Below, in pieces: positions 2,067 through 19,378 of a DNA stretch of 23,141 nt. The DNA lies in IMG/VR virus record IMGVR_UViG_3300042453_000418, positions 1 to 23,141 of that record, one strand, 5' to 3'. Position 1 is the stretch's first letter; every line of letters starts with the position of its first letter. The notes under the pieces were generated by a model. That model was not told the DNA's origin. It worked only from the letters and a program-made list of their open reading frames with translations, and did no database searches. The translations under genes were made by a program, and so were the position numbers. The DNA is from a virus.

Positions 2067-2851
2067 TTCAAGGAAATAACATTGTTATTGTTATCGATAA
2101 CAATTCTCACACAATCAACAAGCAACACATCTCTTATCAAAAGATCGTCGATGCGATCAAGGCCAGTGATTGGGAATCCGTTAAAGAATTAATCGAACCA
2201 ACTAAGTCTCTAGTAGATTATGGTCTGAACAACATCAAGATCGAAGGTGGTGAATTATATTGGAGAGGAGAAGTTTTCGCAAACGCTCTTTCTGATAAGA
2301 TTATTGAGATGTACCGTGAAGGCTTTCCGATTGATCCTATGATTGCTTTCATGGAAAATCTGATGTCAAATCCTTCACATCGTTCTGTTAAGGAACTTTA
2401 TCGATTCTTAGAGCGTGGAAATCTTCCGATTACTTCAGACGGCTGTTTCTTGGCTTATAAGAAAGTTCGAGCTGATTATAAGGACGTCCATAGTGGAACT
2501 ATCGACAATAGTGTAGGACAAATTGTTGAAATGGAACGCAATAAGGTAGATGATGATAAGGATCGAACTTGTAGTTCAGGTTTACATTTCTGTTCTCAAG
2601 ATTATCTCAACCACTTTGGTGGTGAGCGGATTATGATTCTTAAGATTAATCCACGTGACGTTGTTTCTGTTCCATCAGACTACAACGATACAAAGGGACG
2701 TTGCTGCCGATATGAAGTGATTGGTGAATTGACAGGATCACAGAAGCCTGGTACTGTATTCACAAAACCAGTACAAGATAATATCGATGAGGAAGTAGAC
2801 GAAGATCTTTCTTACGATGAATATTGGGATCAACCAGAGTATGGTGATTGA
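2051..2851 (+). CDS. rIIB: rIIB-like protein
   Basis: A 266-residue protein (T4 rIIB is 312) directly after and overlapping rIIA. The start at 2051 is set by an AGAGGA Shine-Dalgarno element about 8 bases upstream, inside the end of rIIA, suggesting translational coupling. The C-terminal half carries features typical of rIIB-family proteins: the DGCFLAYKKVRADYKDVHSG segment around residues 131-150, a CSSGLHFCSQDYL segment around residue 175, and an acidic tail rich in Asp and Glu. In T4, rIIA and rIIB act together at the membrane in rapid lysis and in resisting lambda Rex exclusion. The same job is inferred here from family and gene order. A GAAA-capped hairpin follows the stop codon and may end or stabilise the rII transcript. 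Confidence 0.88.
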   Translation: MYPYLIQGNNIVIVIDNNSHTINKQHISYQKIVDAIKASDWESVKELIEPTKSLVDYGLNNIKIEGGELYWRGEVFANALSDKIIEMYREGFPIDPMIAFMENLMSNPSHRSVKELYRFLERGNLPITSDGCFLAYKKVRADYKDVHSGTIDNSVGQIVEMERNKVDDDKDRTCSSGLHFCSQDYLNHFGGERIMILKINPRDVVSVPSDYNDTKGRCCRYEVIGELTGSQKPGTVFTKPVQDNIDEEVDEDLSYDEYWDQPEYGD

Positions 2852-2860
2852 GAAGGAATG

Positions 2861-2880
2861 GGGGGATAGAAATATCCCTC
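2861..2880 (+). other. GNRA-capped RNA hairpin just after rIIB
   Basis: GGGGGATA (2861-2868) pairs with TATCCCTC (2873-2880) around a GAAA tetraloop, giving eight base pairs with one G-U wobble. It begins 10 bases after the rIIB stop. No T-run follows, so it is not a classic intrinsic terminator; it may protect the 3' end of the rII mRNA or attenuate transcription. Confidence 0.45.
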
Positions 2881-2892
2881 CAAATTATAACT

Positions 2893-3117
2893 ATGATTAG
2901 ACCTACAAAATATAATAGAGTTAGACATCAGGCATCAGGAAATTTCCTATCAAACTACTCTTTCTATGGCAAATCCTATAGTGGTTTCAGAAATACTTCT
3001 TCTTCTTTCTCGAATAAAATTGCTTGTTTTTCAGGAACATTCCATCTTGCAAGATGCGGATCATTTTCTGGATCGATGACGACGAGAGCATCTTTTTCTG
3101 GAAAATTTAGTTTCTAA
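2893..3117 (+). CDS. hypothetical small Ser/Phe/Gly-rich protein
   Basis: The frame encodes 74 residues from the ATG at 2893. A TTG at 2848 in the same frame would add 15 residues, but it overlaps the end of rIIB and would place the 2861-2880 hairpin inside the coding region, so I prefer the ATG. Neither start has a convincing Shine-Dalgarno site. The product is basic and strongly biased towards Ser, Phe, Gly and Arg, with a recurring FSG/SFSG pattern in the second half (FSGTFH, SFSGSM, SFSGKFSF) and two cysteines. I recognise no family. It lies between the rIIB hairpin and the promoter at 3121-3149. It may not be expressed. Confidence 0.35.
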   Translation: MIRPTKYNRVRHQASGNFLSNYSFYGKSYSGFRNTSSSFSNKIACFSGTFHLARCGSFSGSMTTRASFSGKFSF

Positions 3118-3120
3118 TGC

Positions 3121-3149
3121 TTGACATTCCAACCCCACTATAGTATAAT
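3121..3149 (+). promoter_or_regulatory. perfect consensus sigma-70 promoter
   Basis: TTGACA (3121-3126) and TATAAT (3144-3149) are separated by exactly 17 bases, so both hexamers and the spacer match the bacterial sigma-70 consensus. It faces the plus-strand deaminase gene. The expected start of transcription, about 7 bases after the -10 box (near 3156), lies within a few bases of the ATG at 3158. It probably drives early host-polymerase transcription of the deaminase-to-ClpP gene run. Confidence 0.85.
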
Positions 3150-3157
3150 AGTTCTAT

Positions 3158-3577
3158 ATGGAAAGCGAACTGAAGATCTCTCGGATCTTCTCAATTCTGA
3201 AAGAGGTGGCTATTGCCACCCCAAAAGTTGCTGGTGCGAAAGTATCAGCAGCTATCGTCTACAAAAATAGAATTATTTCGATCGGCGTGAATTCCATGAA
3301 ATCCTCGCCACTACAGGCCAAATATGCAGCTAATAAAGATCTATCTATTTTCCTTCATGCTGAAATTGCAGCAATTAAGAATGCGCTACGTCAATTGGAT
3401 GTAGAAGATTTCCCTAAAACTACTCTGTTTATTTGTCGAGCAAAAACAGATATCCTGACTAATAAAATGACATTCGGAATGTCAAAACCTTGTCCTGGTT
3501 GCCAACGTGCTATCGCAGAATTCGGAATTAAGCGTGCAATCTATACACTTGATGATTCTGGATGGGAGGTGATCTGA
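3158..3577 (+). CDS. cytidine/deoxycytidylate deaminase family protein
   Basis: A 139-residue zinc-dependent deaminase of the cytidine/dCMP deaminase superfamily. The catalytic motif H67-A-E69 (LHAEIAAIKNA) and the second zinc motif P-C112-P-G-C115 (KPCPGCQRAI) are both intact: His and two Cys would bind zinc and Glu69 would act as proton shuttle. The N-terminal AAIVYKNRIISIGVNSMKSSP segment fits the start of the fold. It is shorter than T4 dCMP deaminase (193 residues), and whether the substrate is dCMP, a nucleoside or a nucleic acid cannot be told from sequence. Nucleotide-pool synthesis is the most likely role. The next upstream feature is a perfect promoter whose predicted RNA start almost coincides with this ATG, and no Shine-Dalgarno site is present, so the mRNA may be leaderless. 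The stop overlaps the uvsE start (TGATG). Confidence 0.82.
   Translation: MESELKISRIFSILKEVAIATPKVAGAKVSAAIVYKNRIISIGVNSMKSSPLQAKYAANKDLSIFLHAEIAAIKNALRQLDVEDFPKTTLFICRAKTDILTNKMTFGMSKPCPGCQRAIAEFGIKRAIYTLDDSGWEVI
3565..3574 (+). promoter_or_regulatory. extended Shine-Dalgarno site that sets the uvsE start
   Basis: GGAGGTGATC is complementary over ten bases to the 3' end of bacterial 16S rRNA. The GGAGG core lies 7 bases before the ATG at 3577, so translation should start there and not at the in-frame ATG at 3562, which lies upstream of the site. Confidence 0.8.
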
Positions 3578-6262: not shown

Positions 6263-6589
6263 TTATTCAATTTCGCTATCGAATACTAATTTATATTCTT
6301 TTTGTTGGAAACCATCTTTTTGCGCTTCGGCCATGATTATAACGCTATTACCTTCAATAATTATCTCATAACCACTATGTTCTCCTTTAACACCACCTAA
6401 TGATTTTTCAAATTTTACACTCGAAACAATATCAGAAAGTTTGAAACCAGATGATACGATAGGTTCACCAGCTTTTGCTTCCGCAATTGTTGCTTCTACA
6501 ATTGCTCTGATGTAATTCTTGAGATCTGTGTCGGGTTTTGATTCAGAAATCGTGTTTAGATAATCTTTTTTGAAATTTTGTAGGTTCAT
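6263..6589 (-). CDS. small protein with shared N-terminal segment, candidate internal head protein
   Basis: A 108-residue protein. Its first 36 or so residues (MNLQNFKKDYLNTISESKPDTDLKNYIRAIVEA in two stretches) closely match the starts of three other proteins here (6628-6975, 6998-7336, 12568-12990), while the rest (GFKLSDIVSSVKFEKSLGG...) is unrelated to them. Residues I14-S-E16-S17 resemble the I/L-x-E cleavage site of T4-type prohead proteases. By analogy with T4 internal proteins, whose N-terminal targeting peptide ends in such a site, it may be packed in the prohead and trimmed by gp21. That is inference. An AAGGAG ribosome site lies about 6 bases before the ATG. It is the last gene of the operon headed by the GIY-YIG gene. 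Confidence 0.75.
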   Translation of the reverse strand: MNLQNFKKDYLNTISESKPDTDLKNYIRAIVEATIAEAKAGEPIVSSGFKLSDIVSSVKFEKSLGGVKGEHSGYEIIIEGNSVIIMAEAQKDGFQQKEYKLVFDSEIE

Positions 6590-6604
6590 GTAAACTCCTT
6601 ATAC

Positions 6605-6634
6605 TTATTTATTTATCCCTTATTTATTTATCCC
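6605..6634. repeat. perfect tandem repeat of 15 bases
   Basis: TTATTTATTTATCCC occurs twice with no gap (6605-6619 and 6620-6634). The second copy contains the stop codon of the minus-strand gene ending at 6628; the first lies in the gap before the next gene. On the minus strand each unit contains GATAAATA, one base off the late promoter consensus TATAAATA, so it could be a weak doubled late promoter for the gene starting at 6589, or simple slippage. Confidence 0.6.
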
Positions 6635-6975
6635 TTCATCAGCTTCCCATTCAGAGTTACTGAATGGGAAGGATAATTAGAACCATCAGAATCAGAAAAA
6701 ATGTAAGCAGTGTTCCCATCGATGACAATCGTCATATCTTTATAATTTCCGATCAATAGATCTTTTTCTAGAGGAGCTGGATAGAGTTCTTCATCTTCTC
6801 CAGTTAATGGTCTGAATTCAATTTTAATTAAATCTTTAAGTTTAATCGGAAGATTATTTTCCATTTCTTCTAAATTTTCTTCTACGATTGATCTGATGTA
6901 ATTCTTGAGATCTGAATCATCTGTCGATTCAGAGATAGTCTTTAGATATGCTTGTTTGAAATTCTCTAGATTCAT
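6628..6975 (-). CDS. small protein with shared N-terminal segment, candidate internal head protein
   Basis: A 115-residue protein starting MNLENFKQAYLKTISES. I chose the ATG at 6975 because homology with the sister genes begins exactly there; the frame stays open 43 codons further but that part overlaps the upstream gene and matches nothing. Residues 1-33 are identical to those of the protein at 6998-7336, then the sequences part completely (here ENLEEMENNLPIKLKDLIKIEFRP...). The putative cleavage site is I14-S-E16. The C-terminal part is acidic and looks like a small beta-rich domain (MTIVIDGNTAYIFSDSDG). Unlike its sisters it lacks a Shine-Dalgarno site: the 22-base gap after the upstream stop is A-rich. 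Translation may depend on coupling. Confidence 0.7.
   Translation of the reverse strand: MNLENFKQAYLKTISESTDDSDLKNYIRSIVEENLEEMENNLPIKLKDLIKIEFRPLTGEDEELYPAPLEKDLLIGNYKDMTIVIDGNTAYIFSDSDGSNYPSHSVTLNGKLMKG
6877..6975 (-). repeat. DNA repeat copy 1 encoding the shared N-terminal segment
   Basis: Bases 6877-6957 are identical to 7238-7318 (81 bases), and the following 18 bases up to the start codons (6958-6975 and 7319-7336) differ at only three positions. The two copies lie 361 bases apart in the same orientation. The conservation is at DNA level, silent sites included, so the copies are recent or kept alike by recombination. Confidence 0.9.
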
Positions 6976-6997
6976 GTTATTTAATTGTTTTTGATTT

Positions 6998-7336
6998 TTA
7001 TTTACGGATAAACTCTGGCCAGACCTTTTTGCCTTTAGAATCCCACCAATCTGGCATCTCACCATTTTCTTCTCCATAAAAGTTCCAAACTTGACGATCG
7101 CCATATTTTTCTACGTGCTTTTCTAGTGCGGCGACGAATTTCTTATCAAAACCAATAGGATTGTCCCAATCTGGATTAAGTAGTGGTTTGACGTTTTTCT
7201 CGAAATCGTCTCTAGGTTCATTAGCTTCTGAAATAACTTCTTCTACGATTGATCTGATGTAATTCTTGAGATCTGAATCATCTGTCGATTCAGAGATAGT
7301 CTTTAGATATGCTTGTTTAAAATTTTCTAGGTTCAT
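6998..7336 (-). CDS. small protein with shared N-terminal segment, candidate internal head protein
   Basis: A 112-residue protein starting MNLENFKQAYLKTISES, then DDSDLKNYIRSIVEEV, followed by its own C-terminal part rich in Trp, Asp and Lys (LNPDWDNPIGFDKKF, YGDRQVWNFYG, MPDWWDSKGKKVWPEF). An AGAGGA ribosome site precedes the ATG. It follows the GIY-YIG gene by 12 bases. The I14-S-E16-S17 site resembles both the T4 gp21 cleavage rule and the probable gp23 cleavage site of this phage. The C-terminal part matches no family I know. If cut after Glu16, a product of 96 residues would remain. Role as packaged head protein is inferred from the N-terminus and late-gene context. Confidence 0.75.
   Translation of the reverse strand: MNLENFKQAYLKTISESTDDSDLKNYIRSIVEEVISEANEPRDDFEKNVKPLLNPDWDNPIGFDKKFVAALEKHVEKYGDRQVWNFYGEENGEMPDWWDSKGKKVWPEFIRK
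7238..7336 (-). repeat. DNA repeat copy 2 encoding the shared N-terminal segment
   Basis: Second copy of the 99-base direct repeat described at 6877-6975; 96 of 99 bases match, with the three differences clustered in the first codons. Diverged relatives lie at the starts of the genes at 6589 and 12990. Confidence 0.9.
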
Positions 7337-7348
7337 ATATCCTCTTAT

Positions 7349-7972
7349 CTATTTAGTTATTTTAGGAATTCTACCAGGAACATAATTCTCAGGAACGTTA
7401 TGTGGTAGAGTCATAATTTGATGCATTGAAATAGGATTATAGAACCATTTCTTTCCATAACAATGATTATTCACACCACTTTGTGCAGCAGACATTTTCT
7501 TCTTGGTTTCTATAGAATGCTTTTCGCCAATACGACATTCAGCAAATGATCGTTTTTGTTCTTCTGATCTTCTATTCACAGCTTCAGATAACTTCTGTTT
7601 AGCTTCTTCAGAATGTTTCTTACCTCTATGGTTTCCTGGTGCTGGTTTACCTTTCTTAGCTATAGACATCTTCTTCTTAGTCTCTTCTGAGTGTGTCTTA
7701 CCACCGTTCGTGAGATTAGTTAGTATTCCAGTTCCTAGATCTTTTCTTCCATATCTGGCGATTTCTTGAATCTCTAAGTCTTTTGCTTGATCTTCAGATA
7801 AATTTTCGTGTAGGAATACGATTTTGGATTTATCTTTTGGTACAGGAATTCTGTGTTTATTAAATGCTCTTTGACCTTTACCATAACCAATATAGTAGGG
7901 AGTTCCTGCGAGAGCAGTTTCGGAATCTTTTGAACGCAAATATGCGTAGACGTAATAAATAGTATTAGACAT
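7349..7972 (-). CDS. GIY-YIG homing endonuclease with NUMOD3 repeats (Seg-like)
   Basis: A 207-residue protein. The GIY-YIG nuclease domain covers about residues 5-90: VYAYLR stands for GIY, PYYIGYGKG for YIG, followed by Arg35, a Glu in LEIQEIARYG (67/70) and Asn in LTNLTNGG. Three NUMOD3-type DNA-binding repeats follow (HSEETKKKMSIAKKGK near 94, HSEEAKQKLSEA near 120, HSIETKKKMSAAQSG near 152), then a WFYNP...VPGRIPKI tail typical of phage GIY-YIG enzymes. Such genes cut DNA lacking them and spread by repair, like segA-segG of T4. It is free-standing: neighbouring gp23 is intact and no intron is seen. It has its own late promoter (8039-8046), a leader hairpin (8009-8026) and an AAGGAA ribosome site. 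Confidence 0.87.
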   Translation of the reverse strand: MSNTIYYVYAYLRSKDSETALAGTPYYIGYGKGQRAFNKHRIPVPKDKSKIVFLHENLSEDQAKDLEIQEIARYGRKDLGTGILTNLTNGGKTHSEETKKKMSIAKKGKPAPGNHRGKKHSEEAKQKLSEAVNRRSEEQKRSFAECRIGEKHSIETKKKMSAAQSGVNNHCYGKKWFYNPISMHQIMTLPHNVPENYVPGRIPKITK

Positions 7973-12567: not shown

Positions 12568-12990
12568 TTATTCAAATGGATCTAGCGATTTGAAGGTATC
12601 TGGATAACCAAATTCATCAAAAGCTCTTAGATTTCGTGGATAATCGGATTCGGTTCCAGATCCACGAAAATATGGTTTTGGTTCGAATCGCTTCATGAAT
12701 TTTTTAAGTTCTGCATTTTGTAATCCGTCTTTGGTGCTTAATAACTTCTCAAATTTATCTAGTTCTGCTTCGGTGGCATAACTAGTAAAAATTCGAAAGC
12801 GTCTAGATCCAGGATCAAGATCTTTAATAGCAGCATGCAATTTTGGATATTTTCTTTTGGTTATGGATATTTCATTTTCTTCAACCAAAACTTCTTCGAC
12901 AATTGTTCTGATATAGTTTCTTAGATCTGAATCGTCTGTTGATTCTGTGATTATCTTTGTATATACTTCTTTAAAATTTTGTAGGTTCAT
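12568..12990 (-). CDS. small protein with shared N-terminal segment, candidate internal head protein
   Basis: A 140-residue protein starting MNLQNFKEVYTKIITES, then DDSDLRNYIRTIVEE, the same N-terminal segment as the three proteins at 6263-7336, but located between the gp67-like and gp68-like genes. Here the candidate cleavage site is K-I-I-T-E16/S17, almost the same as the gp23 site K-L-I-T-E/S. The C-terminal part (KYPKLHAAIKDLDPGSRRFRI, ATEAELDKFEKLLSTK, PRNLRAFDEFGYPD) is shared only with the truncated copy next to it. AAGGAG lies about 6 bases before the ATG. Position inside the prohead core gene cluster supports a head role; the exact function is unknown. Confidence 0.75.
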   Translation of the reverse strand: MNLQNFKEVYTKIITESTDDSDLRNYIRTIVEEVLVEENEISITKRKYPKLHAAIKDLDPGSRRFRIFTSYATEAELDKFEKLLSTKDGLQNAELKKFMKRFEPKPYFRGSGTESDYPRNLRAFDEFGYPDTFKSLDPFE

Positions 12991-17389: not shown

Positions 17390-19378
17390 TTACAGTAACC
17401 AAGAATTATCTGTGTATTCTGATTCATTACCGTCTGTTATTCCTGCAAAAGAGTAAATCTCTTCTTCAATATTCTCTTGCTTTTCTAAAAAAGATCTTCT
17501 GAGATCGGAATTAGTAATTTCTTTAAAGAAAGATTCGTTCGTTGCCCAAGAAAATAACAACAAAGCCATGACTAGATCGTCATGTTTTCCAGATTCACCA
17601 GACCAAGATCCAGATTTATTGATGAAAGAATATAATTCTTGAACCATATCTTCAGTAAAATTAATTAATCTATCTTCCTCGATAAGTGTTTTAAGAATCG
17701 AAGCACCTAATCTTTTAACACCAGTTGTCATCTCGACACCAATTTTATTCGATTTGGTGAAAGAATTCCTAAGTTCTTGTCCACGTTTCCCTGTAATTGT
17801 GGTGAATATATTTTCATATTCTAAATCCCAATAACAAGATTCCGCAACAGTTTGGCCGACAGTATTTCTTTCAATTAGAAGGAATGCGTTATTATAACTT
17901 TTAGCAAGATCAACGATAATATTCGGAAGCATTATTGGTCTTGTGGTATTATCTTTAAATCTTGCAACAATCTTGTAAGGAATAGTGGTTGTATCTATCA
18001 CAACAGCAACAGAGTAATCATTTTCTACTCCTCTTGATGAGTCGACAGTTACAACATAATTATGATTTTGTAAAGATTTTTCCAGAACGACTAATGAATC
18101 AGTCTGTTTAATAGGGACTTCCCAAGTAAGAGATTGTAATTTGTGTCCTGATATTAGTGTGTTAGAAGAGCCTAGGAATTCGTTTCCATATTCCTGTCGA
18201 AAACCATAGTCTCCAAGAATTTCTAATTGTGTTTTTTTCCAATTTTCGTCTCTACCAGGAACCATATCCCATGTAATTTCGTATGGAACAAATTCGCTTC
18301 TGTTTTCTTCAGCATCTTTCCATAACTTATAATAATGATTCATTCCATTAGGTGTCGAAGTTACTATGAATTTAGAATCAGTTCCTGACGAAATTGTCGG
18401 GAACGTCGATTTAAAGAATTCTTCTGCATTATCGATGAATCCATACTCGTCACAATACACACAATTATGTGAAACAATTCCATTTGTAATATATGAATTA
18501 GTTTCTTCTACATTCAATAGATCGTATACTTCTTCATCAGGAACATTCTCAATAGAAATTACTCCTTTGTTTGGATAAATCGAATAACCTAATTTTAGGT
18601 ATTGAGCTTCGACGAATTCTCCATTATCCAACATAATTCTATGATCCGGTGTACACTTTAAGAATTCACCTGTATCCAAAGAAATCTTAATCAAATCAGA
18701 AACAATTCCTCTAGATATAATACCATCAAAATCACGAAATCCTAGTTGAGTCAAGACTTTGAATTTTCTGGTTGAATCTGATATCAAATCTACACACTCT
18801 GAAATCGGAATGAGAAAAAATTCATCAGTCAATTCATCATATAATCTTATTTTCGTGTCACCAGTAACACAATTTGGAGATCTGCCTCTTATGGAATCAG
18901 TCGATGTTGCGGCAGTAAAAATTTGAGAATTGTTTCCGAATTCTAGAGATCCTTTATTAAGGACATCGACTCCTGGTTGGAGAAAAAATGGAAGATTCTC
19001 GAGTGCAAGTGTTATTCTAGATAGAATTTCTCTCGCTGTAGCTGCTTTATTTGCCAGAATAGCAACAGTCTTATCGCTGTTGAAAATTGCATACCAAAGT
19101 AGAAATGCAGCTACAGTTGTAGTCTTAGCTGCTTGTCTAGCTGCCAATATAATCGAGAATCTATTTGTCCAAAGAGATAGAATTAATTCTTTCTGATATT
19201 CTCTTAGTGTAAGAGGTATCAATCCTTTATCGAGAGAAATAATTTTAACATAATTTTCGATAAAATAGATCGGATCTTTAGAACAACGAATATATTCTTC
19301 GATTTGTTCCTGAGTGTAATTTTCAGATAGATTAGTTCTTTTTATTTTTGGATTTAGATAATAAGTTCTATCACTCAT
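17390..19378 (-). CDS. 17: large terminase gp17 with in-frame mini-intein
   Basis: A 662-residue precursor; removing the intein (residues 170-305) leaves 526 residues (T4 gp17: 610). The ATPase domain shows a Walker A-type loop AARQAAKTTT (79-88), Walker B VYCDEYGF right after the intein, and the coupling motif VTSTPNG. The nuclease domain shows the acidic triad of terminases: VVTVDSSRGVENDY, LLIERNTVGQ and GKHDDLVMALLLF. The enzyme drives DNA into the prohead through the gp20 portal and cuts the concatemer. The P-loop has Ala where T4 has Gly (RQLGKTT in T4, RQAAKTT here). Activity needs protein splicing, because the intein splits the ATPase domain just before Walker B. It follows gp16 with a 2-base gap. 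Confidence 0.95.
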   Translation of the reverse strand: MSDRTYYLNPKIKRTNLSENYTQEQIEEYIRCSKDPIYFIENYVKIISLDKGLIPLTLREYQKELILSLWTNRFSIILAARQAAKTTTVAAFLLWYAIFNSDKTVAILANKAATAREILSRITLALENLPFFLQPGVDVLNKGSLEFGNNSQIFTAATSTDSIRGRSPNCVTGDTKIRLYDELTDEFFLIPISECVDLISDSTRKFKVLTQLGFRDFDGIISRGIVSDLIKISLDTGEFLKCTPDHRIMLDNGEFVEAQYLKLGYSIYPNKGVISIENVPDEEVYDLLNVEETNSYITNGIVSHNCVYCDEYGFIDNAEEFFKSTFPTISSGTDSKFIVTSTPNGMNHYYKLWKDAEENRSEFVPYEITWDMVPGRDENWKKTQLEILGDYGFRQEYGNEFLGSSNTLISGHKLQSLTWEVPIKQTDSLVVLEKSLQNHNYVVTVDSSRGVENDYSVAVVIDTTTIPYKIVARFKDNTTRPIMLPNIIVDLAKSYNNAFLLIERNTVGQTVAESCYWDLEYENIFTTITGKRGQELRNSFTKSNKIGVEMTTGVKRLGASILKTLIEEDRLINFTEDMVQELYSFINKSGSWSGESGKHDDLVMALLLFSWATNESFFKEITNSDLRRSFLEKQENIEEEIYSFAGITDGNESEYTDNSWLL
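18464..18871 (-). mobile_element. mini-intein in the large terminase
   Basis: Residues 170-305 (136 residues) of the gp17 precursor. Block A is CVTGDTKIRLYD with nucleophile Cys170; block B is GEFLKCTPDHRIML with the Thr and His of TxxH; block F is EEVYDLLNVEETNSYITNGI; block G is VSHN with penultimate His304 and terminal Asn305, followed by Cys306 as +1 residue. All residues required for splicing are present. There is no LAGLIDADG or HNH homing domain. The joined extein would read RGRSPN-CVYCDEYGF, in register with T4 gp17 around Walker B. Confidence 0.93.

Follow-up and report, generated by a model that had tools for sequence, protein, structure and literature searches.

The large terminase gene and its insert

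The window analyzed here (the whole stretch of 23,141 nucleotides, IMG/VR virus record IMGVR_UViG_3300042453_000418) comes from an uncultured T4-like myovirus; its gp23 shares 63% identity with that of Pelagibacter phage HTVC008M and about 60% with those of Methylophilales phages Melnitz, and its large terminase (TerL) is ~45% identical to cyanophage TerLs. The terL (gp17) gene is a single ORF of 662 codons encoding a T4-type large terminase that is interrupted between SIRGRSPN and CVYCDEYGF by 136 residues, with the insertion point preceding the invariant Walker B Asp-Glu by 4 residues. The features of the locus are as follows:

17390..19378, minus strand: terL (gp17) precursor ORF, matching Pfam Terminase_6N and Terminase_6C
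18872..19378, minus strand: N-extein (residues 1-169), TerL ATPase to SIRGRSPN, including the Walker A-like motif
18464..18871, minus strand: predicted mini-intein (residues 170-305) without endonuclease domain (Pfam/NCBIfam, AlphaFold/Foldseek, empty-site alleles)
18869..18871, minus strand: intein Cys1 (Cys170), first nucleophile, invariant among contiguous relatives
18641..18652, minus strand: block B TPDH (residues 243-246), its His invariant in 22 relatives
18464..18469, minus strand: block G, penultimate His304 and terminal Asn305
18461..18463, minus strand: +1 Cys (Cys306), C-extein residue 1, also in the empty-site alleles L008-L010
17390..18463, minus strand: C-extein (residues 306-662), Walker B (CVYCDE), remaining ATPase and RNaseH-like nuclease
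18446..18451, minus strand: Walker B Asp310-Glu311, columns invariant in 20 TerLs

A check of the ORF and its residues returned the coordinates, splicing residues, insert length and predicted spliced product (526 residues, 662 minus 136) that had been given in the first-pass annotation, which had also placed an endonuclease-free intein just before the Walker B strand. The insert has the attributes of a class 1 intein: a nucleophile at position 1 (Cys170), a block B TxxH motif (T243-P-D-H246), a block G His-Asn followed by Cys (H304-N305/C306, where the slash here and below marks a splice junction or insertion point), a HINT fold, on prediction only, and precise absence from the inteinless homologues L008-L010. 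Its 136 residues form one HINT domain with no endonuclease domain between the splicing blocks, and a scan of the segment against Pfam gave no match besides Intein_splicing (39.7 bits against a cut-off of 35.8 for the segment alone; 33.7 bits, just below the cut-off, for the whole ORF). The NCBIfam models place its ends at the annotated boundaries, intein_Nterm starting at residue 170 and intein_Cterm (23.5 bits, cut-off 15.6) ending at 306. An AlphaFold model of the intein, built from 22 related sequences, reached a pLDDT of 94.6; a model of the whole precursor (pLDDT 71.5, junction regions <50) was set aside. Foldseek searches of the PDB with the intein model list inteins at the top, the best match being the VidaL intein (6vgv, TM 0.89, E 4.5e-9) and others including the NpuDnaB and Mtu RecA inteins. 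Among solved structures, the best sequence match is CatC (E 2.3e-10, residues 33-135), which is the C part of a consensus engineered from atypical split inteins. With the Pfam cut-off passed and the models of both ends, the fold and the empty sites in agreement, the intein reading exceeds a chance match.

Two further observations concern the surrounding sequence. The Walker A of TerL (residues 80-88; 19124-19126 and neighbors) reads RQAAKTT, with Ala replacing Gly before the catalytic Lys85, a form common to the TerLs of the window, L005, L008-L010 and L023. Elsewhere in the window, several small ORFs in 6263-7336 and 12568-12990 open with near-identical MNL[EQ]NFK leaders and then have a TISES..DSDLKNYIR stretch in common, an N-terminal domain repeated across proteins that otherwise differ.

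Close relatives with and without the intein

The first-pass annotation had proposed comparing terL alleles with and without the intein. In three viral contigs (L008-L010) TerL is 85% identical in amino acid sequence to the spliced product and reads RGTSPN/CVYCDEYGF; the DNA joins exactly at the predicted intein boundary, with no base lost or gained. The same intein is found at 97% identity in three further contigs (L005-L007), whose TerLs are nearly identical to the window's. Presence of the intein is thus sporadic among close relatives, a pattern usually seen with an element that is mobile or was lost recently rather than with a fixed one, and the clean empty site in the nearest intein-free TerLs speaks against the old fixation proposed in the first-pass annotation. 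The possibility that the segment is an ordinary, nonspliced domain was pursued in 77 intein-free TerLs that cover the site: none has an insert there, and the segment never aligns as an ordinary domain. The residue corresponding to the +1 Cys is Ile, Leu or Val in 74 of these 77; the remaining three, with Cys, are L008-L010, whose +1 Cys either predates the intein and allowed its insertion or was kept after precise loss. Sliding-window identity to L008 is not raised on the flanks of the insertion site, which gives no indication that a co-conversion tract formed recently.

Between the window and L005, the intein has a dN of 0.013 and a dS of 0.084, values that come from few sites (10 changed codons, mostly clustered in one patch). 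The two terL genes hardly differ outside two short stretches in which changes are dense, at 18584-18625 (TerL codons 252-265, within the intein) and 19271-19312 (codons 23-36), which may reflect either recombination or an assembly mosaic. In L018 and L019, whose TerLs are ~76% identical to the window's over the best segment, a split intein lies at Walker A (GK/T) with a further ORF in the break; the same phage group therefore has inteins at two sites.

A family of inteins at one TerL position

Profile searches of viral contigs recovered many TerL inteins in T4-like phages, at several insertion positions: Walker A (GK/T), RGxS/C, RGxSx[N/S]/C (the window's), DE/CAFI immediately past Walker B, and, further downstream, a site preceding CEFLGSS. 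A scan of genome contigs gave a single match (L152), the C-terminal fragment of an intein inserted elsewhere in TerL, and a degenerate DNA junction pattern found no match in viral contigs, an uninformative result as the pattern allowed Arg as CGN only and fixed the other bases. At the same site, L161-L164, L168 and L173 have contiguous inteins without an endonuclease; these are 130-134 residues long and ~40% identical to the window's. Split inteins, broken after ~35 residues, occupy the site in L113, L114, L115, L123, L126, L129, L156 and L160; a GIY-YIG endonuclease is fused to the N part or encoded by a separate ORF in the break in L113, L114, L115, L123 and L156 (L160, with a putative endonuclease, has the same layout), and an HNH endonuclease lies in the break in L126 and L129. 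The C part has its own start in L113-L115 and L123, and in L156 there is a four-base overlap between the two ORFs.

A tree built from the C-terminal 100 residues groups the window intein with the mini-inteins of L161 and L164 and the split inteins of L156 and L160 (support 95/85), and this group is nested in a wider one made up of same-site inteins only (support 84/80); the alignment is short and many other branches are weak, and we rely on the tree for close groups only. The topology fits a lineage that keeps to a single position in TerL but whose endonuclease is gained, lost or moved, and the window intein is, by its sequence, the endonuclease-free state of one branch of that family.

Several same-site inteins have unusual arrangements of their own. 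L128 (IMGVR_UViG_3300007541_001453, 2197-3312) has an intein of 372 residues with an HNH/NUMOD3 gene (2318-3073) nested in a different frame; the intein frame stays open across the nested gene: its 252 codons include 0 stops, whereas 2000 synonymous shuffles gave a mean of 18.3 and a minimum of 9. This is probably a case of two genuinely overlapping genes within an intein, the one instance that we found. One in-frame TAG interrupts L119 (1135-1536), which reads VLT-TAG-HGF against VLTQLGF in the window, so that either the phage reads TAG as Gln or the intein is split at one codon. The C parts of the split inteins of L114, L115, L123 and L126 end in His-Gln/Cys, not His-Asn/Cys. More widely among the TerL genes recovered, two inteins per gene, in combinations of the Walker A, Walker B and CEFLGSS sites, occur in L168 (126-1221), L129, L086 and L091.

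The GIY-YIG endonucleases of same-site inteins, together with a GIY-YIG/NUMOD3 gene in the window itself (7349-7972), might suggest that the window intein is mobile through the trans help of that gene, a link on which the first-pass annotation had speculated. The gene, however, lies directly downstream of gp23, 9 kb from the intein, and homologues (54% identity across the full gene, 81% in its first 108 residues) lie directly downstream of gp23 in G004 and G006, the two empty-site relatives with enough sequence, where TerL is uninterrupted. Nor is its product close kin of the intein-borne GIY-YIG group: it does not match the proteins of L113 and L114, and its matches to L089, L115, L123 and L133 are weak and fall mostly in the NUMOD region, whereas the L114 protein matches those of L113, L115, L123 and L133 at 42-48%. 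The window gene looks like an ordinary free-standing homing-type gene with nothing linking it to the intein, and we regard such collaborative homing as the most improbable of the alternatives weighed here.

A decayed or poorly splicing intein, leaving an impaired TerL allele or a contig from a defective population, is scarcely more probable. The window copy does read LKLGYSIYP where L005 has LKSGDSIYP, replacing the common Gly-Asp with Gly-Tyr, and its splicing efficiency could differ; yet the catalytic residues are all intact, the frame is open, the fold is confidently predicted, three further contigs have the same intein, and the extein is strongly constrained relative to L008 (dN 0.10, dS 1.4). 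We give as little credence to a domesticated regulatory intein, in which splicing would act as a redox or other checkpoint on packaging through Cys306 and Cys309 or through Cys170. Catalytic Cys residues on both sides, the missing endonuclease and the CxxC formed at the junction by Cys306-V-Y-Cys309 might favor this reading, but both Cys306 and Cys309 are present in the empty-site TerL; they are thus extein features of the TerL lineage and not specific to the intein, and they lend no support to the redox sensitivity suggested in the first-pass annotation. The sporadic presence of the intein also argues against domestication, and comparison gave no sign of a function past splicing. By far the most probable reading, from sequence and predicted structure, is a canonical class 1, endonuclease-free mini-intein that would remove itself post-translationally from a phage TerL and that belongs to a same-site lineage with empty, mini and split relatives.

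Proposed splicing and known TerL inteins

The class 1 splicing pathway is established, and combining it with the residues present suggests the following course for the window intein. Cys170 would attack the Asn169-Cys170 bond in an N-S shift helped by block B TPDH, the N-extein would pass to Cys306, Asn305 would cyclize with the help of His304 to release the intein, and an S-N shift would join RGRSPN to CVYCDE, giving a 526-residue TerL with its Walker B strand intact. Packaging presumably depends on this reaction, since an insert four residues before the invariant Walker B Asp-Glu would be expected to abolish it unless spliced out. The intein belongs to a lineage specific to the TerL position RGxSx[N/S]/C before the Walker B Asp-Glu, with relatives in other uncultured T4-like phages that have a GIY-YIG (or HNH) gene in the break or none. 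From its endonuclease-free, contiguous state, present inheritance of the window intein would be vertical or by ordinary recombination; copying in trans by the endonuclease of a same-site relative during co-infection is a further, speculative route. We consider it possible, though rather unlikely, that the contiguous mini-intein is a rejoined descendant of a split, GIY-YIG-bearing intein at the same site, that the states interconvert, and that the +1 Cys of the empty-site relatives is a scar of earlier occupation. If so, the site would preserve a natural history in which inteins were repeatedly gained, split, deprived of their endonuclease and cleanly excised.

The anatomy was correctly read in the first-pass annotation, and the intein is ordinary in kind, TerL inteins near Walker A and B having already been described and shown to splice; alone it matters little, as a further TerL intein. 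Seen alongside its relatives, it points to a position in TerL at which empty, mini and split-with-endonuclease states of one lineage coexist in uncultured T4-like phages; such a set is useful for comparing the ways in which inteins become split, shed their endonucleases and acquire them again. Splicing tools akin to AceL/Cat-TerL might also be developed from the compact, contiguous form.

Among known systems, mycobacteriophages have been described with inteins at seven sites in TerL or terminase-like proteins, Walker A and Walker B included; the five kinds tested all splice, and two cut DNA (Kelley et al. 2016; PMC5050341). Like the window intein, these lie in the large-terminase ATPase domain near Walker A or B; unlike it, they reside in terminase_1/6 and terminase-like proteins rather than a T4-type TerL, the DNA cleavers carry LAGLIDADG endonucleases, and the Walker B intein TerL1-e was grouped with class 3 (PMC5050341), whereas the window's appears to be a class 1 mini-intein. 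An intein has also been reported in the terminase gene of a Campylobacter phage (PMC3322345). The split AceL-, GOS- and Cat-TerL inteins listed in a review (PMC11766414; PDB 6dsl) share the TerL host and a homologous C part, but are atypically split after 25-37 residues, whereas the window intein is one chain, with a single ORF in place of separate N and C ORFs. The DE/CAFI inteins of T4-like isolates (Escherichia phage kaaroe, Pseudomonas phage PspYZU05, Shewanella phage Thanatos-2, Vibrio phage vB_VmeM-32 and Desulfovibrio phage 7757) lie in the same gene and are related to the window's at 32-37% identity, but sit after Walker B, ~6 residues downstream of its site, and several of them are split inteins whose N half is fused to additional sequence. 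VidaL, the closest in structure, is 21% identical to the window intein in sequence.
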